From: Amanita rubescens
Taxonomy: Eukaryota; Basidiomycota; Agaricomycetes; Agaricales; Amanitaceae
Assembly (NCBI GenBank): GCA_015039365.1
Contig: WION01000033.1
Coordinates: 1 to 64,000 of the forward strand
DNA length: 64,000 bases
Direction: 5' to 3'
Part shown: positions 2,898 to 60,595 of the stretch, in pieces
How the letters are laid out: each line of letters begins with the position of its first letter
Position numbering within the stretch: position 1 is the stretch's first letter
Notes under the pieces: generated by a model
What the model saw: only the letters and a program-made list of their open reading frames with translations
The model's database searches: none
Told to the model about the DNA's origin: nothing
Program-made: the position numbers and the translations under genes

Positions 2898-4351
2898 TAG
2901 GGAATAGCTCGGGTATGGGTAACCCGCCCGGGTTTGGACCCACGGGTTTCCTGGGTCGGGTCACGGGTCACATCCCTGTGAACCCGTTGTGTACCCGTAC
3001 CCATACCCGTACCCGTGTATGCAGACATGCCAAAGTTGACACACCACATCCACCACATCCCAGGAGCTCTCCCAGGAGCTCTTCTACAACTTCCTCTTTG
3101 TTGTCCGAGGGCTGGATAGGTTTGGATTGATTATGGATGGCTTGGATGAGGTTTGGGTGCCATGGCAGGTAAGTTTGTTTTGTCATATCTCCACCAGTTT
3201 TCAGCAGATTGACTTTGTTTAGGGCTGATCTTTTAGAGTTTTTGACGCTCTTTCTGGTGGCGCTGACCGTTTGATGATAGACCTCTTCGTTCCCTGGCAA
3301 TTCGACATTTTGAGGGTTGGGTGGCAGGTAAGTTTGTTTTTATCATATCTCCACCGGTTTTCAGCAGACTGACTTCGTTTAGGGCTGAATTTTTAGAGTT
3401 TTCGACGCTCTTTCTGGTGGCATTGACCGTTTGATGATAGGCCTCTTTGTTCACTGGTGGTTCGATGTTTTGAGGTAAGTTTGTTTTTGTCATATCTCCA
3501 CTGGTTTTTAGCAGACTGACTTCGTTTAGGGCTGATTTTCTAGAGTTTTTGATGCTCTGTCCGGTGGTGATGACCATTTGATGATAGACCTCTTCGTTCC
3601 CTTGCAATTCGACATTTTGAGGTTTGGGTGGCAGGTAAGTTTGTTTTTGTCATATATCCACCAGTTTTCGGCAGACTGACTTCGTTTAGGGCTGAATTCT
3701 TAGAGTTTTCGACGCTCTTTCTGGTGGCATTGACCGTTTGATGATAGGCCTCTTCGTTCACCGGTGGTTCGATGTTTTGAGGTAAGTTTGTTTTGTCATA
3801 TCTCCACTGGTTTTTAGCAGACTGACTTCGTTTAGGGCTGATTTTCTAGAGTTTTTGATGCTCTGTCTGGTGGTGTTGACCGTTTGATGATAGGCCTCTT
3901 CGTTCGCTGGCAGTTCGACATTTTGAGCTTCGGGTGGCAGGTAAGTTTGTTTTTGTCATATATCCACCAGTTTTCGGCAGACTGACTTCGTTTAGGGCTG
4001 AATTCTTAGAGTTTTCAACGCTCTTTCTGGTGGCATTGACCGTTTGATGATCGGCCACTTCGTTCACCAATGGTTCAATGTTTTCAGAGGAATTGACTGC
4101 TTTTGGAGGTTGATTGCTGTCCCTGTGACACTAGTACTATACTATCATTCTATATAGTATTTTTCGTACATAGTAACTAAGAATTGGTGGTTACCCTTGG
4201 GTAACCCGTGACCCAGAGTACCCGGAATACCCTTCTCCTAAGAATCCAAACCCGTGGGAAAACCCGTACCCGTTTCATCGGGTATGGGTAAGGACGGGTA
4301 TGGGTACGGGTTAGCATGTGACTACCCATGGGTTACCCGAGCTATTCCCTA
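2898..4351. mobile_element. Non-autonomous hAT-type element with 8-bp target duplication
   Basis: The ends are TAGGGAATAGCTCGGGT and its inverted copy ending at 4351. They are flanked by perfect 8-bp direct repeats TTTTTCAT (2890-2897 and 4352-4359). Removing the element plus one repeat restores the RT frame of the host retrotransposon. TAGGG termini and an 8-bp duplication are hAT hallmarks. The 1454-bp interior has no transposase. It holds subterminal GGGTATGGGTA / TACCCGTACCC repeats (2910-3020 and 4185-4340) and a tandem array in the middle. It was presumably mobilised by a hAT transposase in trans. Confidence 0.9.
3163..4085. repeat. Tandem array of about six 145-165-bp units inside the hAT element
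   Basis: Units begin at about 3163, 3329, 3475, 3631, 3780 and 3936, each starting near GGTAAGTTTGTTTT. Two unit versions alternate, so the array also has a dimeric period near 305 bp. On the minus strand most of it is open and encodes a repeated motif like YHQTVNATRKSVENSKNSAL; frames 2968-3300, 3233-3607, 3540-3761 and 3846-4070 are repeats of one another. On the plus strand every unit carries a GTAAGT donor-like and a TTTTCAG acceptor-like sequence. No known domain was recognised. Confidence 0.75.
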
Positions 4352-5755
4352 TTTTTCATCTTGAAGAAAGATAAATCGAGAAGACTAGTGCAAGACTACC
4401 GAGGAATCAACAAATATACAATCAAAGATAAAACCCCCCTACCACGAATAGATGATCTAATCGACACACTGGCTGAAGGGAAATTCTTTATGAAAATGGA
4501 TATTATATGGGGATACAACAACTTGAATGTGAGAATCAAAGAAGGACATGAAGAACAAGCAGCCTTCCTAACCCCAAGAGGGTTGTTTGAACCCCTAGTT
4601 ATGTATTTTGGGTTGACAAATTCCCCCGGAACGTTCATGAGAATGATGTCAACAATCTTCCGAGATATGATCCGAGATAAGAAATGTGTTATCCACATGG
4701 ATGACATTATCTTCATCGGTAAAATGAAAGAAGAATTGCAACATCATTTGATAGAAGGATTGAAAATCCTGGAAGAACATGACCTTTATGTATGTGAAAG
4801 AAAAGAAATGTTATTGGGAAGTAACGGAGGTACCAATGCTTGGACATATTGTGGGAAATGGACAAGTATGAATGGAACCGAACAAGATTAAAGTTATCCT
4901 CAATTGGAAAGATCCAACATGCAAGAAAGATGTTCAGAAATTCAATGGATTTTGCAACTTCTACCGAAGATACATAAAAAGATATTCTGATGTTGCAAAA
5001 CCAATAACTAGATTAATGGGGAATAGACCATTCAAATGGGAAGATGAAGAACAAAAAGCCTTTAAATGAATGAAACAGTTAGTAGCATCAGAAGAAGTCA
5101 TTAATTGCCAATGGAAAATACCGAGTAGAAGCAGACGCATCTGGATATGCAATAGGAGGAACCCTATCCCAATTACAGAATGGAAAATGGAGAACAGTTG
5201 CACTCCTCTCATGATCAATGTCCGATGCCGAACTACAGTATGACATATATGATAAAGAATTACTAGCAATAGTATGTGCATTAAAGGAATGGTGACCCTA
5301 TCTACTTATTAGATGCAGCAGAACCATTTGAAGTATGGTCTGATCACAAAAATCTCTCCTATTTTAGGAAACCACAGAGATTAAACGGATGACAAGCCAG
5401 ATGGTATCTAGAACTCCAAGACTACAATTTTGAAATCAAACATATACCTGGAAAAGTGAATACAAAAGTGGATATTTTATCTCGTTTACCTTGGTATAAA
5501 AACGAAATACCAGAACAGAAAGATGTAACTCTATTAGAAAACACCCGCTTCACCAAGAAAGTAACCACCCCAATACAATTGTTCATGGAAGAACAATTTT
5601 TGAAGGGAGGTGAAACCCTTTCAACCAAACAAATTGAAATAAAAACATCATTGGATAAATTAATCAAGACATCTAAACATAGAGAAACCGAAGTCCTAAA
5701 GAGACAAAAGGAGAAACCAAACCTATTTAAAGAACATGATGGACTACTGTGCTAG

Positions 5756-36383: not shown

Positions 36384-39300
36384 TCACCCTGCCATAAATT
36401 GTTCAAAACTAATGCATGACTAGACAAAGCACATACCATCAATGTGAGACACCTGCCTATTGAGTAATGTGACAAAATGACCAGAGTGCATAAAGTCAGG
36501 AGTAATGTCAGTCTTCAGCTTCTGAGCATAGCCTTTTTGCTTGTATTGATCCATGGCCTCTGTGACTGATGGCAGAAATGGTTTATTGATCCAAAAGGAT
36601 AGCTTGGCAATGATAATAATTGCTCCAAGGTTTAAGCATAAATTCAGTACATGAAAAGGAGTGATTTACAAACTAAGACCTGGCAATCAGTAGGCTTGTT
36701 GCAATGGCATCAGTTTTGTACTACCCAAAAAGAAAAAAGAAAAACACCTTGGCTGCAAAGTTCCTTTGCCTGTTTCCAAACATCGAGAAAAATTCATGCT
36801 AGTTATGTATGAGATAGAGAATACAGAATAATCACATGAGGTGGGAGTGGGTGAGCTGAAATGAAATCTTACAATCTATGATGATAATAATGTAAAAGGA
36901 CAACATGGAAAAGATAAGGCAATATGCTCACTTTCTGATATGTATAAATAGGATGTAATGATATATCAAACATTCATGAATTGAGGTATGCTGAGAATGC
37001 AGGTCAAAAAAATTGCAAAGGAACTCACAAGCTGTTGGTCATAGGAAAAAATGTGATGAGACTGCCTTTCACAAAATGTGCAATGTCACTCACTTCCTGT
37101 TGGTCATAGGAAAAGATGTGATGAGACTGCCTTTCACAAAATGTGCAATGTCACTCACTTCCTGTTGGTCATAGGAAAAGATGTGATGAGACTGCCTTTC
37201 ACAAAATGTGCAATGTCACTCACTTCCTGTTGGTCATAGGAAAAGATGTGATGAGACTGCCTTTCACAAAATGTGCAATGTCACTCACAACCTGTTGGTC
37301 ATAGGAAAAGATGTGATGAGACTGCCTTTCACAAAATGTGCAATGTCACTCACAAGCTGTTGGTCATAGGAAAAGATGTGATGAGACTGCCTTTCACAAA
37401 ATGTGCAATGTCACTCACAACCTGTTGGTCATAGGAAAAGATGTGATGAGACTGCCTTTCAAAAAATGTGCAATGTCACTCACAAGCTGTTGGTCATAGG
37501 AAAAGATGTGATGAGACTGCCTTTCAAAAAATGTGCAATGTCACTCACTCGCTGTTGGTCATAGGAAAAGATGTGATGAGACTGCCTTTCACAAAATGTG
37601 CAATGTCACTCACTCGCTGTTGGTCATAGGAAAAGATGTGATGAGACTGCCTTTCACAAAATGTGCAATGTCACTCACTCGCTGTTGGTCATAGGAAAAG
37701 ATGTGATGAGACTGCTTTTCACAAAATGTGCAATGTCACTCACAAGCTGTTGGTCATAGGAAAAGATGTGATGAGACTGCCTTTCACAAAATGTGCAATG
37801 TCACTCACATCCTGTTGGTCATAGGAAAAGATGTGATGAGACTGCCTTTCACAAAATGTGCAATGTCACTCACTCCCTGTTGGTCATAGGAAAAGATGTG
37901 ATGAGACTGCCTTTCACAAAATGTGCAATGTCACTCACAAACTATTGGTCATAGGAAAAGATGTGATGAGACTGCCTTTCACAAAATGTGCAATGTCACT
38001 CACAAGCTGTTGGTCATAGGAAAAGATGTGATGAGACTGCCTTTCACAAAATGTGCAATGTCACTTACATGCTGTTGGTCATAGGAAAAGATGTGATGAG
38101 ACTGCCTTTCACAAAATGTGCAATGTCACTCACATCCTGTTGGTCATAGGAAAAGATGTGATGAGACTGCCTTTCACAAAATGTGCAATGTCACTCACAA
38201 GCTGTTGGTCATAGGAAAAGATGTGATGAGACTGCCTTTCACAAAATGTGCAATGTCACTCACTCGCTGTTGGTCATAGGAAAAGATGTGATGAGACTGC
38301 CTTTCACAAAATGTGCAATGTCACTCACAAACTATTGGTCATAGGAAAAGATGTGATGAGACTGCCTTTCACAAAATGTGCAATGTCACTCACAAGCTGT
38401 TGGTCATAGGAAAAGATGTGATGAGACTGCCTTTCACAAAATGTGCAATGTCACTTACATGCTGTTGGTCATAGGAAAAGATGTGATGAGACTGCCTTTC
38501 ACAAAATGTGCAATGTCACTCACAAGCTGTTGGTCATAGGAAAAGATGTGATGAGACTGCCTTTCACAAAATGTGCAATGTCATGTCACTCACTTCCTGT
38601 TGGTCATAGGAAAAGATGTGATGAGACTGCCTTTCACAAAATGTGCAATGTCACTCACTTCCTGTTGGTCATAGGAAAAGATGTGATGAGACTGCCTTTC
38701 ACAAAATGTGCAATGTCACTCACTTCCTGTTGGTCATAGGAAAAGATGTGATGAGACTGCCTTTCACAAAATGTGCAATGTCACTCACTCGCTGTTGGTC
38801 ATAGGAAAAGATGTGATGAGACTGCCTTTCACAAAATGTGCAATGTCACTCACTCGCTGTTGGTCATAGGAAAAGATGTGATGAGACTGCCTTTCACAAA
38901 ATGTGCAATGTCACTCACAAACTGTTAGACATAGGCAAAAATTTGGTAAGGTCATCTTTTGAACCACTAAATTAGCATGACATGCTGCTAACCTCCTATG
39001 TTTATAGGAAAAGATGTGATTTCACTGCTTTTCACAAAACTTGCAATATCACCCACAATCTGTAGAACAAAATAATGTGTCCAAATTGTCCTCTAGCCAA
39101 ATGGCCAGCATCACTCACTTCCTTTTAGAATGGAATTAGTATCCTGAGGAGTTGAAAAAAAAGAAAACAATGCCACTGACTCTCTTTTGCTGTATTTCAT
39201 ATGATGAATTCACATGTCACAGAAGGATCACATACATCCTGTTTATTTCACAATAGCTTGTGAAGAGACTTTGAAAAGGAGAAATATTTACTGTCTGTTG

Positions 39301-41356
39301 TTTTGGGACATCATATAATGTTTATAAGCAGACAGAAAGGAAATGTTACTTACTTCCTGTTATTAGTAATCCAATGAAATTTGTTGAGACTCTCTTTCAG
39401 ATAATAATATGTTACCAACTTTCTGTTGCTCATTGAGTAGTATGTCTGATAAGCTGTGCAAACATCAATGTTGCTTACTTTCTTTAAGCAGGTCAGATGT
39501 AGTGTGAAGGAACATTGTATTACTCACTCCCTGTCCATGAGAGACTGGATTGACAAGTCTGCTTACAATGATAGATCAACTCACTTGCTATTGGCCATAT
39601 GGTGCACCATGGGATCATTTACCAAAAATCAAAATTGAGTCATGTCACTCACTTCCTGTAGATTATGGGACAAGAGTGCTGATCACAAAAGGAAGCATTA
39701 CTCACAAACTGTTGTCATGAGACAATATATCAGATCTATGCTATGTAGTCCAATGTCACTTACCCACTGAGATCAATATCGTCAGATCCTGCTGCCAACT
39801 TGAATATGGTGACAGTGACTAACCTGCGCTTCACTCAGTTGTTTATTGGCCATCTGAACCATGACTAATTTTGTTTTCATGTGAAGGCATTGGAGTGTTA
39901 CTTACCACCTGATGAACATTTGCAAGTATTTATCATTCCATATGAAGGTTACCTACCTCCCTGTCCACCTATTTCCATTCAAATTTTCCTATGCTATGTG
40001 CAGTTTGACAAAAATGCATACCCAAAAATGTGGAAATTTTGAAAAAACTATGATAATGACCTCATCCCATGTCCAATCTCTATACTTCAGAACTTGTCTG
40101 AACAATGTCAATGTTAGTAAGTGACAAAGATGTGAATGTGACCCTCACTGAAGTGCAGATTTAACACAAAGGTCAAGATTATTCATCTGTGTTGAAACGA
40201 ACAGCTCATGTATGCTGTTATCATCTATTGCATCAGCAGTTTGCTGAGTTAATTCAGCACAATTCTTCTCTGGTAAATCCATGTCTATGAAACAACATTA
40301 CTCCTGTTTTTCAGGAAGAAATCCTCATCATTCTCACCTTCCAATTGCACATATGCCTTGGGAGGATATTTGGTATCTGAAACTTTAGGAAGATAAACTT
40401 TCTGAAAAGTGATTTCAGCAATTTCCCTGGCTCTCTCCCACTTATCCTCATCCTTTGCATCAGTCAAGTTGACATATTCACTGGCTATTTGACCATCAAA
40501 TTTAGTGAATATAACCACCAAAGGGACTGTAAAGGAAATATTTACTAGTCAGTACTAGTAGATTTGTGGCAAGTTGGCCAATGGAAAGGAGGTAACATAA
40601 CCAATCTCTCCAAAACCAACTTGAAGTTACAAGATGAGATATGAATTCATTAGGGCTTACCTCTGCCTGTCCCTTCATTGAAGAATTCAAGTTCTGCAGG
40701 TAGAATGGGACGAGGACTGTCCATGGGTATACAGTACCTAGAGGAAGCCAGGTCAGCCAGTACTGTAAAGGGATAGAGCAAGATACCAAATTGCATGCAG
40801 CTGGTTTTTCAGCTCAGTTTCTCCAGACTTCTTTTCAATGAACTTCCAAGCAATCTCCAATTCCTCAGTTGAACCAGATTCAAAACCCTGAGAGTCATGG
40901 AAGATAAAGTTACTTCCAGGGTATGTAATTTGATGCTCAATATCATGCAGGCCTCTCTGATATTGTTGCATGTAAATGGGTACATCCATACATCATTATC
41001 TGACTCACCTCAATTGATGGCATCAAATGATTCACAGACTGTTCAAGCTGATTACCTGCAAGAAACTCAGCAGCCAAACTTGGAAGCACAAACTCAGATT
41101 GACTTACCATCCTTGCCATATATGATGGGCTTTGTCCCCTTGGCTACACCACAAACCTTCTCAAGGATGGTTGTCTTGCCTGCATTAGCCCTCCCAATGA
41201 CAAGGATGCGAAAGTGTGGGCATAGATAGCGTTCTTTGATTATTTGAAGATGTGTCTCATCTTGATCTGCTATTGTCAAGGATTAGAGATGCTGATTCAC
41301 ATAAAATGATAAATTAGCCTACTCAAAGATCCAGGTGCACCAGTTGTGGCTGCCAT
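36384..41356 (-). CDS. P-loop GTPase gene with a chain of about 47 three-nucleotide exons
   Basis: Proposed exons run 41356-41323, 41269-41108, 41055-41009, 40956-40787, 40737-40661, 40526-40338 and 40284-40149, giving a G domain. G1 is GRANAGKT (residues 37-44), G3 is DSQG (102-105) and G4 is TKFD (171-174). The start ATG at 41356 is chosen because exon 1 then joins exon 2 in frame. Next come a 12-nt exon (40097-40086), a 4-nt exon (39960-39957), about 47 exons of 3 nt (39908 to 36873, residues 278-324), and exons 36798-36748 (HEFFSMFGNRQRNFAAK), 36679-36670, 36622-36437 (AKLSFWINKPFLPSVTEAMD) and a last one with TGA at 36386-36384. All parts sum to 1224 nt, exactly 408 codons. The G-domain family is expanded in Agaricomycetes. 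The microexon chain is inferred from splice sites only. Confidence 0.75.
36932..36934 (-). other. Three-nucleotide exon (AAA) downstream of the array
   Basis: TATCAG-AAA-GTGAGC on the minus strand. The next one, CATCATAG-ATT-GTAAGA, is at 36873-36875. They connect the array to the 51-nt exon at 36798-36748 and keep phase 0. They lie outside the 65-bp repeat, so repeat copying does not explain the spacing. Confidence 0.65.
37029..38921 (-). repeat. 65-bp tandem array: 62-nt intron plus 3-nt exon, 29 units and one more 3-nt exon at the edge
   Basis: On the minus strand each unit is GTGAGTGACATTGCACATTT... to ...TATGACCAACAG (62 nt), followed by a variable triplet. Triplets (minus strand) are CTT in 8 units, CGA in 6, GAA in 6, CAT, TTT, GAT and GTT in 2 each, and GGA in 1. 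The 62-nt part is nearly invariant: one unit has 5 extra bases at 38581-38585, two have CAAAAAATG, two have CCAATAG acceptors and two have GTAAGT donors. Two six-unit blocks 390 bp apart (starting with the CAT triplets at 38459 and 38069) form a higher-order repeat. The array lies inside the GTPase gene between its exons. Confidence 0.9.
38919..39960 (-). other. Diverged microexon region: AG-3 nt-GT kept while introns differ
   Basis: Minus-strand 3-nt exons flanked by AG and a GT donor are at 39906-39908, 39764-39766, 39706-39708, 39653-39655, 39585-39587, 39528-39530, 39479-39481, 39420-39422, 39354-39356, 39292-39294, 39236-39238, 39181-39183, 39119-39121, 39057-39059, 38993-38995 and 38919-38921. 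Donors vary (GTAAGT, GTGAGT, GTTGGT, GTAAAT, GTATGT, GTCAGT, GTGGGT, GTTAGC), as do intron bodies (46-71 nt, except about 139 nt around the skipped site). At 39823/39824 a CAG meets GTTAGT with no exon between them. The triplets spell only sense codons in the frame fixed by the flanking exons. Confidence 0.8.
40098..40148 (-). other. Intron with a CTAAC branch site before the microexon chain
   Basis: GTGAGG...CTTACTAACATTGACATTGTTCAG, 51 nt. The last large exon ends in phase 2 (CTTCA), and the 12-nt and 4-nt exons that follow shift the chain to phase 0. Confidence 0.65.
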
Positions 41357-46289: not shown

Positions 46290-48763
46290 TCATCCCCCCA
46301 TCCTTGCCCCCCTGTTCGTCCTGCTTGCTCCATCCTCTCTCTCACTGCTCCCCGTTCCTCCCCCTCCTAGCCCTCCTCTGAGTCCGCCTCTGTTGCCTAC
46401 TACGAGCCAATTGCGTATATCCCCTTTGTCGTATATGTCCCGTTCTCCTTCTATCCTTTGAGCCCTATTCGGCCCCGTTGTGCGTCCCCTACTGTTTTGT
46501 GCGCTTTGCCCCATTGGCGTTATCCCGTTTTCCCGGCATGGGTTGCTTGTTGTGTATCCGTTGAATAAGTTGCTCTGTGTTGTCTGTTTTTTATCCTGTT
46601 TCGACATCCACGCTAAACGCTTCGTTTTCCTGATAAAGGTGGCAGCGTATGTCATGTTGTTATCATTTCCCAAGAATTTTCGGAGGTCCGTCATATCTCG
46701 CTTTGCCTTTCTACGGAGTTGGGTTCTTGGTTCGTCGTAAATTCTACAGTGTCGTAATACGTGATCCACTGTTTCGTTATATCGCTTGCACGCTGCGCAA
46801 GCTGCGGTGTCGCTTATCTTAATGCGGTGGAGGTGTGCGTTTAGACCGATGTGTCCTGTCTTTAGCTGCGTCCATAAGCTGCCCGTGCAGCGGTCGACCT
46901 TCGCTAACGCTTTCCTGTACTTTTTGCCGCCTGCATCGCTGATGATGCCTTTGAGTTTTTTCGCCTGGGGGGATATGCGCCAAGCCTCTAGCGCTGCCTC
47001 CTTTAATTTGGAGTTAAAATGTTGTTTCGCCGCAGATTTGCTGATCGGCAGGGGCTTTCTAAACAGTTTTGGCAGCGCCGTTCTGGCACTGCATATGCCT
47101 GTGCTTGCGGCCTTCGCCGCCTCGTCTGCCTCCTCGTTTCCTTTTATTCCTACGTGACCCGGTGTCCACCTGATCTTCAGCTTTACATTACCGTTCCTGT
47201 TTTTAAGTGCTTTTATCTGCTCATGGAAAACATCGAGGATGTACTTGCCTGATCCTGGCTTGTTATCTGTGGATGCCATTATAGCTGCTTGATTGTCGAC
47301 GTTAATGGTGACAGATTTTACGTTTTGTTTGTTTCTAATTGAAAAGACGCCTAAGGCCATTGCGGCGCATTCTGCTTCGTAAACTGTATGTTCTGTAGCC
47401 GGCCCTAAATGGAATTGTGTTAGAGCGACGTGTTTCCCTTTTTTATAGATCACCGCTGCTGCCCCGACCCCATCCTTTGTTAGGGATCCGTCTGTGTATA
47501 TTTGGTAGTCAGCCTCGTCACGACTACATCGCTCAATGGCAGTGTCTTTGTCGCTCGGGATGGTGGTCTTGATGCCCGGGTTCCATGAGCTGGGATGTCG
47601 AATAGGTATTATCTTTTCCATCTTGTCGGGTTTGATACTGTATGTGTGGAAGAGCTCGTGTAGGGGGCTGGGGTGCTTTTGTACATATCGTCGTGCTTTA
47701 CCGCATACCATCTTATATAAGGGGTGGCTTTTAGGGATCGTAGCGAGGCCCAGGGTTGTGTTGTAACGCCATTTGTCGACTGCTAGGTGTATCGGAAGTA
47801 AGTCTGATAATATGTTTAGAACGGAACTCGCCGTGGTTCTCATGGCGCCTGTGATTAACAAAGATGCTCGGCGTTGTATTGTTGCAAGTTGGCTCATGAC
47901 TGCGATGTTGTAGGTTGGGGTCGGGCTGGGTGATGTGAGGTTGTGGCGTCTCCGGGGAGAGAGGAAGATGTCGGCGCCGTAGAGTATTCGAGGTATTGCT
48001 ATGGTGAGGTATAGCTGACGTACGAAGGAGGGGCTAACGCCTTTGTTCATGCGGGCTAGGCGGCCAAACTGGCTGATCCATTTTTCGCCTTTCGCGAGGG
48101 TTGCTGCTATGTGTGTTTTCCAGGTGAGCTGGCGGTCGATTGAGATACCTAGGAGTTTTGCTGATTCCTGCGGTTGTACTTCATGTCCTCGTATGTGTAT
48201 TGCTTCGCCTTCGCCTTCTCTTCCTGTCGTTGCGCCTTTGGCTCGTAAGAAGTCGACCAGTTGGAATTTTTCTATGCCGAAGGTGCAGTTGTGTGCGTCT
48301 GCCCACTGTAAGATACCGCCGTGTCTGTTTAGCATTTCTTCAATTTTTTTGTGGGTTTCTGTATAGTTGCGGCCTATCGCGAGAATTGTTGTGTCGTCTA
48401 CAAATAGTATCGCGTCCTCACCGTTTTTTCCGTTTGGCACGTCCAGGATTTCCGAGTTGTATATCATATAGGCGATAGGTGAGAGCGGGTCACCTTGGTC
48501 AAGTCCATTTGTGACGATGAAAATGTCTGATACGTAGTCGTCAAATCTGAGCTGGGTCCTTCTGTTGCCCATTCTCTGTATGATCCAGCTGGTGAATTGG
48601 CAGGGGATGCCTCTTGTACGCATGTCATGTACTAGTCGATCAATGTTGACACTTGGGAAAGCGCCTTTAACGTCTAGGAAAAGCGCCGATACTACCTTTC
48701 TTTTCCGCCATGTGTCTTTGACCGTCGTGGTCAGGTAATGAACTGCCTGTGTTGTTGTATGGC
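46290..48763 (-). CDS. LINE ORF2, 3' part: reverse transcriptase, RNase H and CCHC
   Basis: This continues the frame of 58845-60595 across the copia insertion. RT motifs are ALFLDVKGAFPSVNIDR (about 48650-48700), GLDQGDPLSPIAYMI (48470-48510) and the catalytic FVDD (about 48395). RNase H spans about 47520-47110, with YTDGSLTKDGVGAAAV, YEAECAAMALG, VDNQAA and WTPGHVGIKGNEEADEA. A C-terminal zinc motif CAACKRYNETVDHVLRHC follows at about 46745-46800. The enzyme would nick target DNA with the endonuclease part and copy its RNA on site. About 825 codons remain here, without internal stops. The stop is at 46290, about 280 bp before the A tail. Confidence 0.88.
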
Positions 48764-49488: not shown

Positions 49489-52400
49489 TTATTTATTAGC
49501 TTTCAAAAGGGTAGTCAATTTATCATTTTCTCTTTCATAGTATTTAAAAATTTCTTCAAGATATCCTCGCACTTCAAGATCTTGAATCCTTTCAAATATT
49601 TTACTATGTTGTCCTGGGGACTTATTAAGGGTTTTACTTTTAATATAATTAGCAAAAGTTTGTGATGCCTTAATATGATTGGTTAATGATATTTGACTAT
49701 CATCAAGGATTAATCCCATCTTCATTCGGAATATTACAAATTTTGAATATGGTAGATTTTTGGTCATTATATCCGCAACTTGTTCATTAGTAGGAATGTA
49801 TGTGAGTTTAACTTTCTCACTTTCGACACATTCTCTAATGTAGTGGAATCTTATGTCAATATGTTTTGAACGATGTTCTTGTGCGGGGTTACTGGCTAAG
49901 AACATTGCTCCTTGATTGTCACAACATAAGAAAATAGTTTTAATTGGAAAATCGAGTTCACTCATAAGAGACTCAATCCAAACTATTTGTCTTGATGTAT
50001 CAGACATTGACATGTATTCTGCTTCAGTTGAAGACAGTGCCACTACTTTTTGTTTTCGTGAAACCCATGATATAGCTCCTCCTGCGAGTTTTACTATATA
50101 TCCAGTGACAGATTTTCTTGTAATCTTGTCAGCACCCCAGTCAGCATCAGTAAAGGCTACAAAGCCTTCTTTATTTAAACCATTATAAACTATTTTAGTT
50201 TGTACAGTGGTATTAACATAGCGTACTATGTATAATGCTTTCTGTATGTGCTCTTCATTTGGGTTTGCACAAAACTGAGACATTAATATTACTTGATAAG
50301 TAATATCAGGTCTTGTTCCTAATGCAAGATATAACAACGATCCTATTATTTGTTGAAAATAAGATCGCATTTCTGCTGTACATTCTTTTGTAGCAGCAGT
50401 TGGAATATATCCTGTTGGTAAAGGTGTACGAGTTGGTTTACAATTTTCTAAACCAAATCTTGTTACAACCTTCTTAGCGTATGCATGTTGATCAATAATA
50501 AGAGTACCCATATTCTTATTGTAATTGATTTGCATACCTAAGTATTCTTTAACTTTTCCAAGATCATGACATTCCCATTTCTTCATAAAAGCATTTTTAA
50601 CTTTATGAATTTCTGGTGTACTGTCACCCATGAAAAGCATGTCATCGACATATACTATACACACTATTATAGTGTCGTTTTCTCTTCTGACGTATACGCC
50701 AGAATCAGATAAACAGCGTATAAATCCTAAATCCTCTAAGGATTTATTAGCTTGTTTATTCCAGGCATATGAGGCTTGTTTAAGTCCATATATTGCCTTT
50801 TTAAGTTGGTAAACTTTTTGTTCTTGGCCTTTGACTACATAACCTTCTGGTTGTTGCATATAGATATCCGCTTCGAGATCTCCGTACAAAAAGGCTGTTT
50901 TAACATCTAGTGCTTCAATATCCCATTTTTCTAGCACAGATATTGCTAACAAAAGGCGAATCGTTTCATATCTTGCCACTGGCGAAAACGTTTCATCATA
51001 GTCAAGTCCAGGTCTTTGAGAAAATCCTTTAGCAACAAGTCGAGCCTTCTTTCGACCGTCGGATTTAATATCATATACCCATCTACATTTAATAGGTGTA
51101 CGATTATGAGGTAATTCTGTAAGTTCCCAGATTTTTCTATCATTCAATGATTTCATTTCATCATTCATTGCTGTCTCCCATTGTTCATAAGATTTGGGAT
51201 CAGTAATTTTGACTTTTTGAATATCTTTGTATTGATATTCTCTGATATTATCTCTTGAAATATCAATGGCAGGAATTGCTTGTGCGAGTAAGTAATTCAG
51301 AAAACCATTACCTTGCTCTTTAATGAGACATGACATTTCATTAATTTGAGCATTGTGTAATGTTGAATAAAGTAATTTAACTTTATCAATATGTTGTCGT
51401 ATTTTAGATCTAAGAGAATATCTGATTGTAACATCAAGTCTTGGATCAGATTTATCTTTTTCTTTAAGATCTTGAATTAATTCACGAACAACATCTTGTT
51501 CTTCTGTAATTTCTTTTTCAATTTCTAATGGTGTTTTATTACCATAGGCATTGTCTTTCTGTATAACTGGTTTTCGAGATCTTTCAGATCTTCGAGTAGG
51601 TTCTACAGGTTTTTTAGCAGTTCCTTTGCCTTTTCCTTTAGTAGTTTTATCTTTAAGACTTTGTACAGGTAGATCTAATTCAACGCCTGTAGGTTGATCT
51701 AATTCAGCACCTTTGTCTTTTGAAGATGTATCTTTCTTTTCAAAGAAAGATTCTAGTTTATCATCCCATTTAGTGTCATCATCATCATCATCTGATGAAT
51801 CAGAACTAGGATGATTTTCAAAGTTGAAATCAAAGAAATCATCATCTGAATGCTGCTGTTCAGATGAAATATCTCCTTCATTATCTGGTTTACCATCAGA
51901 GATATTTTTATCTGAGTTTTCAGAATTATCCTGTTCAATAGGCCTGATAGGGTCCAAGTTTTTTGTATAATTTTCATCTTGAGGTTTGGCTCTTGGAAAT
52001 TTGGTTTCATCAAATTCAGCTTGGGTGGATACTCGAAGTTGATTTGTATTTGTCATGAAGCGGTATGCTTTTGCATTTGGTTCGTATCCAATAAAGGTCA
52101 TTATTTCAGACCTTGGTGTTAATTTATTTTCGCGCGATTCATGTGGGATAAAAACCCAAGCTTTAGATCCGAATATCTTAAAGTAAGAAACATCAGGTTT
52201 CTTTCCAGTAAGATTTTCAACAGGGGTCTTCCATTTGGTTCGTCTAAGTGGAGTACGATTATAAACATGTACGGCAGTTTCGATCGCAAAGTTCCACCAA
52301 GATTGAGGACATGAAGCATGTAATCTCAATGCTTCACTTTTTTCCCAAAGTGTTCTATTCATGCGTTCAACCTTTCCATTTTGTTGATGTATATATGGAG

Positions 52401-55400
52401 TAGATTTTTCATGAATAATTCCTACATCAGTTAAGTAATCTTGTATGTTTGTGGACATAAATTCGCCCCCTCGATCGGAACGAACGATTTTTATGTTATA
52501 TCCATATTGGTTGTATATTTGTTTGTGCCAACCTTCAAATATTACAGCGACGTTAGACTTTTTCTGTAATGGTTTTACCCATACATGTGATGTACAATCA
52601 TCAAATATTACAAGTAAATATTTCTGTTTATGATAAGATTGTACAGGAAAAGTCATCAAGTCACAGTGTATACGTTCAAAGGGTTGGGTAGCACGTTTTT
52701 CTGAAAGAGGAAAGCTTTGTGAAACAGCTTTTCCTTTTAGACAACCGTTACAAGGTTCTAAGTCTTTAGGAATTGTTAAGGGAGGGAAACCCTCTAAGTT
52801 TTTAGAGCCTAATTTCAATATTTGTTGGCTAGGATGACCCATCCGTTGATGCCAAATTTCATATCCAACAACATTAATGGTGGTCATCATTAATTTATAA
52901 TTTGAAGGTTTAATAATTTGACCTTCTGTCCACATTAATGTTTCGTTACCATCTCCTGGAAATCCTTCCAGTGATGCGTTTTCAGAGCCTTCTCTGTAGA
53001 AAGAAATCCTATCATTATCTTGTTTTGCAATAAAACCTTGTTTACACAATGTTCCATTGCTTATTAGTTGTAGTGTGGCACTTGGCATATGGAGGACCGG
53101 ATAAAGTTTCAATCTTGAAACCGAACCATTTTTAAGAGTGTGATCCAAAATCACAGTCCCTATACCTAATATATCTGCTTGATTATCAGCTGTAAATACC
53201 GAAGTAGGAACTTCATATTTTTTATAGCTGACAAAATCTTCTAAGTGTGCGGTAAAATGATGTGATGCACCTGAGTCACACATCCATATTGTAAGTCCTT
53301 TATTATTTTTATAACATTCAGGACATTTGCAAGAAGGTGATTTACTACAAGGTAGATTATATGGATCTTGAAGATGTCCAATGTTAATAACATTAGCACG
53401 TCTACGATTGTTTTCTTCTATTATGAATTCATCCAAGTTATATTGATTGTATAATTCAGAGAATGTTCCATAATTTGAAAGATTTTGAAGATTAGACATG
53501 TTTTGTCTGTATCTTTCATTTTCACGCATATTGGCATCAAAATTATATAAATTATGAAGATCTGTAGATCTTCTTGGTGTAGGGTTTACTATCGGTACAT
53601 TTGATGGTATTACCGGTACAGTGTCAATAGTACGATTAGTTGGATAATCGTATAAATTGAAAAAATCTTCATAAGGCGTAATAGGCCTTGTTGGGATTTG
53701 AGATGATGCCATAGATTCTGGAGCCGTATGGTAAACAGAATCTTGATCAGATTGATAAAAGTAATTTAAATCTGATGAACTTACAGATTCTGGTCGGAGG
53801 GATACAGTGTCATGGTCATTTACCATCCCTCTCAACATATTTTGTAAGTGTTCTAAAGTGCGTGCATTAGTATTCATTCTTCGAGCTTCCAAATTAGCTC
53901 GTCGAACTTGATCCACATAATATTGTCTGGTATGTACATACCACCAACTTATTTGTTCATCATCAAAGGAACCAGGCATTGGTCCCTCAGGCTCCTCATC
54001 GGTATAAAGTCCTTCATACCCTGAAGAATTGGCCTCAGATTGATGTGATTCATTATCTGTTTGATATCCTTCATTATCGGTTTGATGATGGGATATACTA
54101 GAGGAAGCAAAGATAGGACTAGCAAGATCGTCCAAACTTTGAGTATCCTTAGTATCTGCAAATATTGCAGAATCAAAGATATCAGAGTAATCCGTTGATT
54201 CAGTTCGTACTTTTTGTACATCTCTGGATACAGAATCTCCCGAATCTTCGGATATCTCATCAATTCTCCCCATGAAGTCGTCCGTGGGAACCGCACGAGT
54301 ACCTTTGTACTTGTAAATCTTGGGGACAAATTCTTCATCAAAATCTGTCATTACCTGATCTCCAATTCTGGCAATCAGAGGTAAAGATGCTGATGTCGAA
54401 GATGCCATAGCATGCCCAGAACCAAGTGTTGATTGAGCTGCTGTGCGAGCAGCAAGTTTATTCGCACGATTCTTTGCTTTAGCTGCCTTATTGCGTTCCC
54501 AATTTGGTCCTTTAGACTGATTAGGGACTTGACCAGCCCATTGGGGTCTAAAAGGAGTCTGAGATTGGCCAGGTGTATGTTTTGGTCCATTAGATGGTCC
54601 ACCTGTCGGAGTATGTTGTGTTGGGTTTCTTCGATTTCCCATTGGTTTTCTTCCACCTCTGCCTCGAAAGGACTTCCCACGATAGGAATTCCAAGGGGTG
54701 CGAGGTTGTCCTTGTTGCAATTGTTGGCGTGCCATATTTGCAACTACTTGAGAGTTAGAATGTTTATTCCCTCTCGTGACAACAGAAGTATTGGCATTGT
54801 TCCTGTTACCTTTCCTTCGGGACCATTCCTCAGATATGAGATTAAGGAATTCATCTACAGTGTCATCATCTGCGGAATGTGCCAACAGATTTGCAACAAA
54901 GCTGTCCCATGAAGGAGGTAAGGCATGTAGGATCGTCATAATTTGCATTTTGACGGTTAAGGTTACACCTTGGTTTGACACTCTATTAATCAAGTCCATA
55001 AGATGTGGAACTTGAGTGTTTGGATTGGAATTCTCTTTGAGTTTCCAGTCAACAATTTGTCTATAGAGTCCAAACGTAGCAGCCAGACCTTGTTTACCAA
55101 ATTTATCCTTTAGAGATTTCCAAAGGACTTCGGCTTTATCATTTTTATCGTCAACAAGGTGTACTAGATTAGGTGCTAGTTTTAAGGTAATGTAACCTTT
55201 GGCTTTCATATTGTCCTCTTTAAATTCGATGTATTCTTTGCGAATTTCTTTAAGGGTTTTTAACTGATCTGGCTTTATATCAGATGTCTTGATCGCCTCT
55301 TTTTCAGATGGTTCAAGATCTCTGGGCCAATCAAGTTTAGGATCAATATGTGCACCAAGACCTTGACTGTTCAAGTACGCAGTCATAAGTCTTTCGAATG

Positions 55401-55461
55401 CAAGCCAATTTGATCCGGTAAGAACAGGAACAATGGAGTTTATTGAATTGGAAGAAGACAT
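49489..55461 (-). CDS. Copia gag-pol polyprotein, 1990 aa, intact
   Basis: One frame encodes the whole polyprotein. Gag is residues 1-250 (LTGSNWLAFERLMTAYLN, LPPSWDSFVANLL), followed by an Arg/Gly-rich RGKSFRGRGGRKP segment in place of a CCHC knuckle. A long disordered Ser/Asp/Tyr-rich linker (about 380-700) precedes the retropepsin CDSGASHHFTAH (about 728). The zinc-binding pre-integrase is HQRMGHPSQQ...CNGCLKGK (about 870-910). Integrase has D of HCDLM (about 933), RSDRGGEF (about 997) and KVERMNR (about 1032). The RT has WVYDIKSDGRKKARLVAKGF and YVDDMLF (about 1605). RNase H has FTDADWGAD, SSTEAEYM and CDNQGAMFLA (to about 1900). A C-terminal extension of about 80 residues follows. There are no stops, so the copy may be functional. 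Confidence 0.95.
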   Translation of the reverse strand: MSSSNSINSIVPVLTGSNWLAFERLMTAYLNSQGLGAHIDPKLDWPRDLEPSEKEAIKTSDIKPDQLKTLKEIRKEYIEFKEDNMKAKGYITLKLAPNLVHLVDDKNDKAEVLWKSLKDKFGKQGLAATFGLYRQIVDWKLKENSNPNTQVPHLMDLINRVSNQGVTLTVKMQIMTILHALPPSWDSFVANLLAHSADDDTVDEFLNLISEEWSRRKGNRNNANTSVVTRGNKHSNSQVVANMARQQLQQGQPRTPWNSYRGKSFRGRGGRKPMGNRRNPTQHTPTGGPSNGPKHTPGQSQTPFRPQWAGQVPNQSKGPNWERNKAAKAKNRANKLAARTAAQSTLGSGHAMASSTSASLPLIARIGDQVMTDFDEEFVPKIYKYKGTRAVPTDDFMGRIDEISEDSGDSVSRDVQKVRTESTDYSDIFDSAIFADTKDTQSLDDLASPIFASSSISHHQTDNEGYQTDNESHQSEANSSGYEGLYTDEEPEGPMPGSFDDEQISWWYVHTRQYYVDQVRRANLEARRMNTNARTLEHLQNMLRGMVNDHDTVSLRPESVSSSDLNYFYQSDQDSVYHTAPESMASSQIPTRPITPYEDFFNLYDYPTNRTIDTVPVIPSNVPIVNPTPRRSTDLHNLYNFDANMRENERYRQNMSNLQNLSNYGTFSELYNQYNLDEFIIEENNRRRANVINIGHLQDPYNLPCSKSPSCKCPECYKNNKGLTIWMCDSGASHHFTAHLEDFVSYKKYEVPTSVFTADNQADILGIGTVILDHTLKNGSVSRLKLYPVLHMPSATLQLISNGTLCKQGFIAKQDNDRISFYREGSENASLEGFPGDGNETLMWTEGQIIKPSNYKLMMTTINVVGYEIWHQRMGHPSQQILKLGSKNLEGFPPLTIPKDLEPCNGCLKGKAVSQSFPLSEKRATQPFERIHCDLMTFPVQSYHKQKYLLVIFDDCTSHVWVKPLQKKSNVAVIFEGWHKQIYNQYGYNIKIVRSDRGGEFMSTNIQDYLTDVGIIHEKSTPYIHQQNGKVERMNRTLWEKSEALRLHASCPQSWWNFAIETAVHVYNRTPLRRTKWKTPVENLTGKKPDVSYFKIFGSKAWVFIPHESRENKLTPRSEIMTFIGYEPNAKAYRFMTNTNQLRVSTQAEFDETKFPRAKPQDENYTKNLDPIRPIEQDNSENSDKNISDGKPDNEGDISSEQQHSDDDFFDFNFENHPSSDSSDDDDDDTKWDDKLESFFEKKDTSSKDKGAELDQPTGVELDLPVQSLKDKTTKGKGKGTAKKPVEPTRRSERSRKPVIQKDNAYGNKTPLEIEKEITEEQDVVRELIQDLKEKDKSDPRLDVTIRYSLRSKIRQHIDKVKLLYSTLHNAQINEMSCLIKEQGNGFLNYLLAQAIPAIDISRDNIREYQYKDIQKVKITDPKSYEQWETAMNDEMKSLNDRKIWELTELPHNRTPIKCRWVYDIKSDGRKKARLVAKGFSQRPGLDYDETFSPVARYETIRLLLAISVLEKWDIEALDVKTAFLYGDLEADIYMQQPEGYVVKGQEQKVYQLKKAIYGLKQASYAWNKQANKSLEDLGFIRCLSDSGVYVRRENDTIIVCIVYVDDMLFMGDSTPEIHKVKNAFMKKWECHDLGKVKEYLGMQINYNKNMGTLIIDQHAYAKKVVTRFGLENCKPTRTPLPTGYIPTAATKECTAEMRSYFQQIIGSLLYLALGTRPDITYQVILMSQFCANPNEEHIQKALYIVRYVNTTVQTKIVYNGLNKEGFVAFTDADWGADKITRKSVTGYIVKLAGGAISWVSRKQKVVALSSTEAEYMSMSDTSRQIVWIESLMSELDFPIKTIFLCCDNQGAMFLASNPAQEHRSKHIDIRFHYIRECVESEKVKLTYIPTNEQVADIMTKNLPYSKFVIFRMKMGLILDDSQISLTNHIKASQTFANYIKSKTLNKSPGQHSKIFERIQDLEVRGYLEEIFKYYERENDKLTTLLKANK

Positions 55462-58134: not shown

Positions 58135-58839
58135 TGTTGAAACTAGGGGTAACAAATCCCTAGCGAGCAGCGCAGTCTAGTACATAGAATGTACTACTTA
58201 CCGAGTGTGGTGTGGAGTTGTTAAGAGCTTACTGGAGCTGGGGCTCAACAGTAGACAGTAGAGAGGATAATAGGATAAGGATTGACGCTACTAGAGTACA
58301 GTTTATATACTACTAAACTACAAATAAGTACAAAGAGTCTTATCAGTATGAGTCACAGGTATTTGACTCATAAGGCGTCATTCCACAGCAATGCACAGCT
58401 ATTGTACAGCAATGCATAGCTTTGCGCAGCACTTGACTCATCAATTATATTGACTGACTCATCACATTATCAATCTTCAATGTGATAGGTCGATAACCAT
58501 AACGTATATATGTCTTCTATTCTCATGTCAACATATATTCACATCATCAATAGTTCCACTATTATGATTGGATGATCTTATGAGAATATCGCTAGGATAT
58601 TCTCATGTCAGAATATGTTCTCATCATCAATCATCCACTATTATGATTGGTAGATGAGTATGAGAATATGTCGAATATATTCTCATGTCAATATATTATC
58701 TCACACTCAATCATCCACTATTATGATTGGTTGAGAGACGAGTAAGTAACTGAGCGTTATTACATTAGTTAGTGTAAACTAATGATATCACTTATATTTA
58801 CTATATACTGTATGTATATTGTATATTATAAGTTCAACA
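58135..58839 (-). repeat. Copia LTR (5' LTR on the minus strand)
   Basis: 705 bp, identical by eye to 48769-49473. It contains the promoter of the element; the transcription start was not determined. Confidence 0.93.
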
Positions 58840-58844
58840 CTGGG

Positions 58845-60595
58845 CGTGCACCAAAGTGGTTCTTCGGTATAATGTTGTGTGTTTCGCATCTGTTGGTAAT
58901 TTCGTTAGCCACGCAGGCATTGAGTAGGCGAGCAAACCCGTTCGAGAGGGAAATTGGTCTCCACGCGTTGGGGGATTCATAGTTTGGTCGGCTCGGCTTT
59001 TTGAGGATGACTGTCATGGTTTGCGCCCACGAGTCTGGGTAGTAGTCAAGGTCGAAGGTTGCCCGGAAGAGCGGTCCTAGGTACGGGATTAGCATCTTCT
59101 GGGTTTCTTTGATGACGCAGTTTGGTGCAGTGTCTGGGGCTGTCGCTTTATACGGGGCCATTTTGTCGATGGCTCTTTTGATCTGCTTGTTGGATATTGG
59201 TCTGAATTCCCACTTTGGTTTGGGGTACTCGGGGCCATCGGGCGCCTCGTCCTGTGGAGGCTTTTCCGGAAATAGCGCTTCGTAGAATATGCGGCTCTTC
59301 AGGTCATTGGTTGTTGCAACGATCTCTTCATCACTTCCTCGCAGCCTTGCTTTGAGGTTGGGGACCCTTGCCCGGCCCGCGTCGGTTGGCTCGTTGTTTG
59401 CATACTTAGCTGCCGTCCACACCGTTGTTTCATTTAGGGATTCTAGCCATTCAGTCCAGTGGCCAAGCTTCGCTTCGCGTAAGGCGGTTGTGTATTTACC
59501 GCGTAGGCGTCTGTATTCCTCATGCGCAGGGTGGTTTGGGTTGAAGCGTTGATTGTAGGACTTCCTGCCCTTTTTGGTAAGTACTTTTTTGAGCTTCTTC
59601 AGATCATTGGACCACCATCGCTTCGTGTGGGGGGCGTATTTCGCTTTTGGGACTATTTTTTCTATTGTTTCATGTACGGCTCTATCAAGACTCGTTAGCA
59701 TTTGATCAAACTCATGGATGTTATGGATGGTCTTAGTCTTCGGTATACCGTCCAGTTTAGCCTTTAGCGTCTTCCTGAATTCATCCCAGTCGGTTTCTTT
59801 GAAGTTGAATCGTTGTTGTTCATCATGTAGTGTGACCGAGGTATCAATCTTGGTGATGATTGGGAAGTGGTCCGTATTCACTGGTTGTTTCTCTGGTTCT
59901 GTGTTGCAATAAGTTAGCGCGTCAATTATAGAGCAAGAGATGAAGACGTTATCCGGTCGTGTGAGATTGCGCGTATTTAGCGCCCGCAGTGTTGGGATGT
60001 CTTTGGGGAGAGCCATTTCCATGTCGTAGGTCGTCGTGAGGTCTAGAACTGTTTGGGCGCGTTCTATGTTTGCCGGTGTAAAGAGGTGGTGGTTTCTATT
60101 TTCGTCCCAAAATGGGTGGTGTCGGTTGAAGTCGCCGAGCCAGATCATATGTTCATTGTTTTCCTCGTTGTGGAACTTTTGGATCGTTTGTGATAGAGAT
60201 TGTAGGGCGTCATCGTTGTTTATGTCGTTATAGACATTGAAGATGTTGATTGTACTGGCATCAGTCTGAAGCCGGATCGCGGTGACGTCTCCGGATTTTG
60301 TGGCTAAGTCACTCCATGTGTTTGTGAGAACCGATGTGTTGACGAGCATGATGGATCTGGTTTTCTTTGGATTTTTATAGTGGGTGTCCGGGTAAACAAC
60401 CCGCCACTTCGAGTTTGCCCTGGTGTTATTAAAAGAGTCAATATATGGTTCCTGAATAGCGCAAATATCAAATTTCTTGGCCTTTAAGGATTCCAGGAGG
60501 TCTTCCTGCGCGTTTCGGGATTTGTTTACGTTTTGTTGCCAGATTTTAAGTTGCTTCGCGACTGGTTGGGATGTGCTTGGGGCCGTATAAACCAT
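58845..60595 (-). CDS. LINE ORF2, 5' part: APE-type endonuclease and RT start
   Basis: The start ATG at 60595 overlaps the ORF1 stop by one base (TAATG). The endonuclease has QQNVNKSRNAQED, CAIQEPYID (catalytic Glu), MIWLGDFNRHHPFWDE (Asp/Asn/His) and VNTDHFPII (terminal DH) within about the first 250 residues. A linker with WWSNDLKKLKK follows, then the RT N-terminus (WRPISLSNGFARLLNACV) up to HFGARP, where the copia element interrupts the codon after P. The frame resumes at 48763 with the Gly-His expected for this motif, so the copia insert is the only break. Confidence 0.88.

Follow-up and report, generated by a model that had tools for sequence, protein, structure and literature searches.

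In a 64,000-nucleotide stretch of the Amanita rubescens genome (assembly GCA_015039365.1, positions 1 to 64,000 of contig WION01000033.1; hereafter the window), a GTPase gene on the minus strand at 36384..41356 contains a long array of exons of exactly one codon each. As modelled here from the minus-strand reading and alignment with other copies of the family (8 copies for the part upstream of the array, 11 for the part downstream), the gene has 61 exons and a coding sequence of 1338 nt (445 codons plus a stop), with no internal stop codon and introns of 46–134 nt. Forty-seven of the exons are 3 nt long, and 46 of these are consecutive, the first being TGG (39766-39764) and the last ATT (36875-36873). 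In all likelihood the gene is functional and belongs to a GTPase family that has expanded greatly in Amanita and in which a single-codon exon array encodes the linker joining the G domain to a helical domain at the C terminus. The presence of the array at this place is confirmed: a strict chain of AG-NNN-GT sites (spacing 44-82) is 44 long in the gene, breaking off where a 94-nt intron separates it from the last two microexons; elsewhere in the window no chain on either strand exceeds 2, the opposite strand of the array region gives 1, and none of 300 dinucleotide shuffles gives more than 2. Chains built with exon lengths of 0–2 or 4–12 nt never exceeded 1, so that length 3 alone forms a chain. 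A chance pattern was rejected on these numbers, and a retrocopy and sequencing error were also weighed as explanations and set aside.

Read from its 5′ end, the gene opens with an exon at 41323..41356 that carries the presumed start codon (an intron-free homologue, P0001, aligns from its own residue 1), followed by seven conventional exons (exons 2–8, 40022..41266) that encode the G domain, with the motifs GRANAGKTT and FTKFD, and run to ...FSKFPHFW at 81% identity to P0001. A 12-nt exon encoding VDRE (39957..39968; VDRA in P0001 and VGRD in a second homologue, P0008) had been predicted in a preliminary description of the locus and was found; a 4-nt exon that the same description used to set the phase gives way to a 3-nt exon, GTG (V, 39906..39908; GAG in 6 of the 8 aligned copies). 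An apparent gap of 140 bp contains a 30-nt exon encoding MANKQLSEAQ (39824..39853), a peptide identical in P0008, and the last exon ahead of the 12-nt exon, whose end is corrected here, reaches 40022. The description's count of about 47 three-nucleotide exons was right in number, with 46 of them consecutive, and its frame does close without an internal stop, over 1338 rather than 1224 nt. The array proper begins with a head of 14 single-codon exons, W-F-E-Q-G-K-K-E-T-D-R-E-I-E (38993..39766), in which codons are kept between gene copies while introns have diverged; one of its exons, AGA at 39183, is ambiguous, as a start 6 nt earlier gives the in-frame 9-nt form CAAAAGAGA, which the splice-site model described below prefers, whereas the D-R-E reading in P0001 favours AGA alone. 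Thirty variable single-codon exons follow (37029..38921), nearly all lying between near-identical 62-nt introns (a 65-bp unit, with one unit of 70 bp; TRF reports the 65-bp unit 29.6 times at 37009-38940), and then a last pair, AAA (36934-36932) and ATT (36875-36873), at 36873..36934; an ending in K-I or K-N is shared by 14 of the 20 arrays that we read, the window's included. Four C-terminal exons (36798-36748, 36694-36670, 36622-36437 and 36388-36384, the last with the stop; 36384..36798 overall) complete the gene. The two ends of the model are supported by similarity of the N-terminal part to P0001 and of the C-terminal exons, to residue 425, to a further homologue, P0044. Pfam gave five GTPase-type and two DUF matches to a 387-aa form of the model, all of them weak and short of the curated cut-offs; MMR_HSR1 (PF01926) scored 17.7 bits, below its curated cut-off of 21.9, and is annotated on several relatives, and neither NACHT nor ANK matched this form at E up to 1. 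A search of the protein collection with just the array and C-terminal part found no match.

To follow the array beyond the window, we searched the 75.7-Mb, 786-contig assembly, picking loci by motifs of the GTPase family and reading 20 arrays in full or in part. The motif of the repeated intron matched 2020 places at up to 2 mismatches (0 for the reversed pattern), and the head's opening W-F-E, split as three codons over three exons, was recovered at 90 places against 0 in a reversed control; a split D-R-E pattern was found at 66, against 9 for scrambled E-R-D. Some of the W-F-E and D-R-E places are near-identical copies, perhaps two nuclear haplotypes, so the number of distinct genes is below 90. 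The tail unit CCAACAG-N{0,30}-GTGAGTGACATTGC matched 1019 times, and in the first 100 matches listed the spacer was exactly 3 bases in 95, 2 in three, 4 in one and 6 in one. Contiguous coding for WFE[QK]GKK was found nowhere in the genome at 0–1 mismatch, and at up to 3 mismatches in 48 places against 56 in the control; a search with the 27-aa head peptide also returned no match, but is uninformative because it missed the existing 10-aa exon as well.

A splice-site model trained solely on the 46 sites of the window and blind to triplet content was then applied to the 19 other arrays, in which it called 903 exons, 859 of exactly 3 nt. These number 32–72 per array in 18 of the 19, the longest being a paralogue (L009) with 72, and 11 in L028; arrays of tens in tandem are thus the rule, as in the truffle genes discussed below. 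None of the 859 triplets is a stop codon, compared with about 49 expected from triplet base composition (naive P ~7 × 10−22), and none is in a reduced set of 709 from which the near-identical or short copies L023, L026, L027 and L028 were removed. Twenty apparent stop triplets from first-pass callers proved to be out-of-register sites (for example, acag-GAA-gtgagtgag read as aag-TGA-gt): a better site adjoins nearly all of them, and the content-blind model called none as a 3-nt stop exon. When the joined triplets were translated out of phase, phase +2 gave 110 stops in 934 codons and phase +1 only 6 in 934; since phase +1 is itself nearly free of stops, what singles out phase 0 is the frame of the flanking exons together with the residues of intron-free proteins. 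The reading of each microexon as one complete codon in phase 0, proposed at the outset, is supported by the absence of stops, by the conserved order of codons and by the finding of the same residues joined in intron-free homologues.

Two further observations concern the arrays themselves. The array L028, which starts from a W-F-E head at C3:115834, breaks after 11 exons; farther downstream, about 7 kb at L012:2810-9941 (C3:124000-133999) holds six further chains of 3-nt exons (7, 8, 10, 36, 15 and 9 in the first pass), and the two regions together are possibly one giant or broken array. In six copies (L011, L014, L016, L017, L019 and L020, and not the window copy) the intron ahead of the first C-terminal exon shares a motif, [CT]AG directly followed by GTGAGTGA, which reads like an acceptor abutting a donor, as would a zero-length exon or a recursive-splicing ratchet point.

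Head and tail of the array are conserved in opposite ways. In the head, triplets are 92.4% identical between loci as against 75.7% for intron interiors (81.9% ungapped; 13 loci and 78 pairs, L017 having been dropped from 14 as incomplete), a figure slightly lowered by one mis-registered triplet (TAA) retained in L031, and 579 of 936 pairs of head introns differ in length. In the tail, the 231 units compared have a diversity of 0.034 for introns and 0.59 for triplets, where the intron value is limited by the admission of units with at most 6 mismatches from the consensus (231 of 267) and the set, which leaves out L023 and L027, includes both of the near-identical L022 and L026; an identical 62-nt intron, present in 136 tail units, accompanies 16 different triplets. 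Across the 28 units of 65 bp in the window, all three positions of the triplet are variable, but just five of the remaining positions are. Compared with L024 or L026, the window copy is 98.2–99.6% identical in flanks and head, while its series of tail codons is unrelated. Differences were counted for three other pairs of copies: L022 and L023 have no differences in 1998 flanking bases, 4 in 153 triplet bases and 4 in 3128 intron bases (P = 2.7 × 10−4), with neighbouring exons changed from ATC to CGA and from GGA to CGA; L022 and L026 differ at 21/1998, 9/154 and 7/3123 (P = 8 × 10−9); and L023 and L026 at 5/154 triplet and 9/3123 intron bases (P = 3 × 10−4), these three comparisons overlapping because the pairs share copies. 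Within the window itself, a duplicated block of 5 units has no differences in 310 intron bases and 3 in 15 triplet bases.

Evidence for splicing comes from 23 homologous proteins on short contigs (22 on JGI contigs of at most 2.1 kb, one on a 4.3-kb ENA contig), which we infer to be cDNA because a protein such as P0001, with 386 aa on 1446 nt, leaves no space for the family's introns. In six of the 23 (P0001, P0008, P0017, P0044, P0046 and P0047) the W-F motif and the residues that follow it are joined, and P0067 has a related segment. P0001 is 81% identical to the window model over 326 residues with a single one-residue gap, through ...LSETKWFEKGKKESDREIEY, an alignment that spans 15 residues encoded as separate exons in the genome; P0008 (contig of 1903 nt) aligns through MANKQLSEAQWFEHGKKDTDKQIVYDG; and P0044 (478 aa, contig of 1486 nt) is 53% identical from the G domain through the variable segment into the C-terminal part, the alignment ending at residue 425 of the model's 445. 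With its residues joined in intron-free proteins, the array head is very probably spliced and translated. The variable segment is probably a disordered, hypervariable linker; in the predicted model of P0044, pLDDT falls below 50 at residues 317-329 and 334-359, which contain it.

Several findings weigh against this account. Support for splicing comes from homologous proteins and not from transcripts of the window locus, so the inclusion of all 46 exons would be an extrapolation from them; the intron-free proteins belong to other species or paralogues (the exon matches listed for the genome reach 89% at most) and are available as protein sequence only. P0001 and P0008 stop short of the C terminus with last residues unlike the C-terminal exons, which makes incomplete splicing within the array possible, and other short-contig homologues (for example, P0015, P0064, P0095, P0111 and P0114) end soon after FPHxW, so that incompletely spliced or truncated transcripts may exist as well. 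No protein examined runs all the way through a long array of the W-F-E-x-G-K-K type, the complete proteins P0044, P0046, P0047 and P0067 representing other subfamilies. Of the exons called in other arrays, 44 of 903 differ from 3 nt, and L010 and L025 have many of 1, 2 or 4 nt (CA, GA, CATT and so on), which look like decay or homopolymer or assembly error. L016 and L027 are identical throughout, triplets included, and misassembly of near-identical tandem units can occur, which would weaken the comparison between copies. A role in recognition is plausible, the grounds for it being hypervariability, family size and a resemblance of fold. Regarding the last, immunity-related GTPases (IRG) occupied the best rows of a structure comparison, with TM scores of only 0.34–0.41 in the first three rows and a high root-mean-square deviation, and a profile search of solved structures returned just the GTPases Der, EngA, Arl2 and Arl3 (E 0.001–0.006); GM4951 belongs, like Irga6/IIGP1, to the mammalian IRG family.

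How such an array could work and change can be sketched. The short introns would be removed by intron definition in 5′-to-3′ order, the simplest way of joining 3-nt exons, with every step appending one codon to the upstream exon; because all array exons are multiples of three in phase 0, skipping or duplicating a unit would leave the frame intact. The near-identical introns may supply the homology on which unequal exchange and gene conversion depend; whole codons would thereby be swapped while introns stay uniform, leaving no trace in the introns because those of donor and recipient are the same. Neutral exchange would homogenize the triplets too, so that selection for diversity, or else targeted mutation, must be added, and we favour diversifying selection as what would maintain the codon differences. 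The product would be the hypervariable linker of an immunity-like GTPase that could recognize self, non-self or partner organisms. Taken at its widest, such codon-cassette diversification would draw on a genome-wide pool of single-codon exons lying between copies of one 62-nt intron (90 array heads and more than 1000 unit copies, near-identical copies counted), recombined so as to rewrite segments residue by residue without frameshift and yield a repertoire of hypervariable receptors; this larger proposal we put forward tentatively, as having somewhat less than an even chance of being correct.

An addition to, rather than a replacement for, the single-codon reading is that the exons are real but read combinatorially, with splice sites skipped at random or under regulation and many linkers thereby produced from one gene. 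We consider this possible, at slightly lower confidence than the cassette pool. Similar splice sites around phase-0 exons of 3n length would keep any skip in frame, and excerpts of papers on Tuber melanosporum report alternative splicing of codon-sized microexons (PMC4986451, PMC10197012, PMC3689799), but the proteins compared include no pair of isoforms from one gene: P0046 and P0047 have nearly identical first 250 residues and C termini, are least alike in the variable segment and also diverge somewhat just before it, and are more likely separate gene copies because they differ outside the segment too. The conservation of head codons as a series also speaks against skipping there, where constitutive inclusion fits. 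The near-perfect 65-bp repeat does have the look of a minisatellite, and P0001 and P0008 lose similarity to the model where the variable part begins; yet for the tail to be a dead minisatellite within one large intron, coding being limited to the head or absent altogether, seems highly improbable when no stop occurs in the 859 triplets (tails counted), the spacer is so regularly 3 bases among the first 100 tail-unit matches listed, variation is focused in the triplet, the array joins the C-terminal exons in frame, and P0044, P0046 and P0047 have variable residues between head and C terminus.

Two other explanations, each of which we regard as unlikely though less so than a dead repeat, concern how the differences arose. 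If one intron had been inserted between every codon of an ordinary exon, in the manner of introners, the triplets would be the old exon, and near-identical introns genome-wide (2020 matches at up to 2 mismatches; 1019 for the tail unit) beside very different triplets would be expected; this abundance is explained equally well by tandem duplication, however, and insertion every 3 nt, always in phase 0, is hard to achieve, the head is not found coded contiguously in the genome, and in the duplicated 5-unit block, whose introns serve as markers, the triplets changed after duplication. Alternatively, a dedicated mutator could hypermutate triplets in place of exchange and selection. Whole-codon changes such as ATC to CGA beside unchanged introns would fit targeted mutation, as would the bias of the third base, which is A or T in 96.5% of 513 variable triplets compared with 241 of 399 codons in the longer exons of the window gene, but conversion from another unit sharing the intron explains the codon swaps with no new enzyme.

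Most of the annotated A. rubescens family proteins examined stop at or before the array, and the entire variable region is therefore missed. In a wider set of 170 proteins, an FP[HN..]xW-type motif occurs in 71, of which 57 stop no more than 45 residues past it, proteins from Mycena, Hebeloma, Lyophyllum and other Amanita included; the search restricted candidate lengths, which makes these early ends suggestive only, and they suggest that gene predictors may stop at arrays in other genera. Variable segments of two more distant relatives on JGI short contigs, P0124 and P0153 (HHREEEEYHHHHHYLEYEEYL and PRPPDRLHRPRRDPRPLRRDP), resemble the arrays in composition and hint at possible arrays in other genera. 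Elsewhere in the window, Pfam matches mark genes of transposable elements: a long copia-type gag-pol frame (49489-55461, minus strand), a reverse transcriptase with RNase H (46290-48623, minus), an endonuclease-reverse transcriptase piece (58826-60595, minus) and a further reverse transcriptase piece (4328-4891, plus).

Codon-sized microexons in truffle NLR genes were reportedly described by Iotti et al. in 2012. According to excerpts of three papers, the NACHT-ANK (nank) genes of Tuber melanosporum have tens of 3-bp exons that are alternatively spliced (PMC4986451, PMC10197012, PMC3689799); the initial view that 3-nt microexons are rare and isolated thus needs correcting, and arrays of this kind were already known. 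The likeness extends to an expanded fungal gene family and, in those excerpts, to a proposed diversification of the sensing part, but the truffle genes are ascomycete NLRs and the window family is a basidiomycete GTPase in which NACHT and ankyrin were not detected, and what is documented for the former is alternative splicing, for the latter a head that is conserved, introns that are uniform and codons that turn over between copies. What is new here is that the arrays belong to a GTPase family of a basidiomycete, that their head is conserved and that the turnover of their codons has been measured; among the matches listed in the open-licence PMC literature, none reported such arrays in a basidiomycete, whether Amanita or another, and an excerpt of a 2024 paper states that a description of functional microexons had been lacking for filamentous fungi (PMC11121469), overlooking the truffle report. 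The micro-exon genes (MEG) of Schistosoma, described in part of one source as having exons of 3-81 bp, introns of up to 5 kb and secreted products (PMC10526429), likewise have many short exons and variable proteins, but the window gene differs in its nearly uniform 3-nt exons and in lacking long introns (46-134 nt). That spliceosomal exons of 1–3 nt are possible is apparent from the 1-nt exon of APC11, for which the portion of the source consulted proposes intron definition with recursive splicing (PMC4674806), and from the 3-bp exon of homothorax, as excerpted (PMC7392893), both being single exons and not arrays.

Together, these results present the spliceosome with an extreme test of accuracy, with 46 consecutive one-codon exons in one gene and a total of 72 exons of 3 nt called in a paralogue, and provide a natural setting in which to study intron definition and recursive splicing. 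Truffles and Amanita are both fungi that live with tree roots, and the truffle precedent and the present family suggest that codon-sized exon arrays may have had two or more origins in such fungi; in other Agaricomycetes, annotated proteins that break off at this same residue suggest, in addition, that such arrays could be widespread and overlooked. An array of this kind would constitute a new route to a hypervariable protein, one residue per cassette and always in frame, and makes adaptive-like recognition in fungi directly testable.

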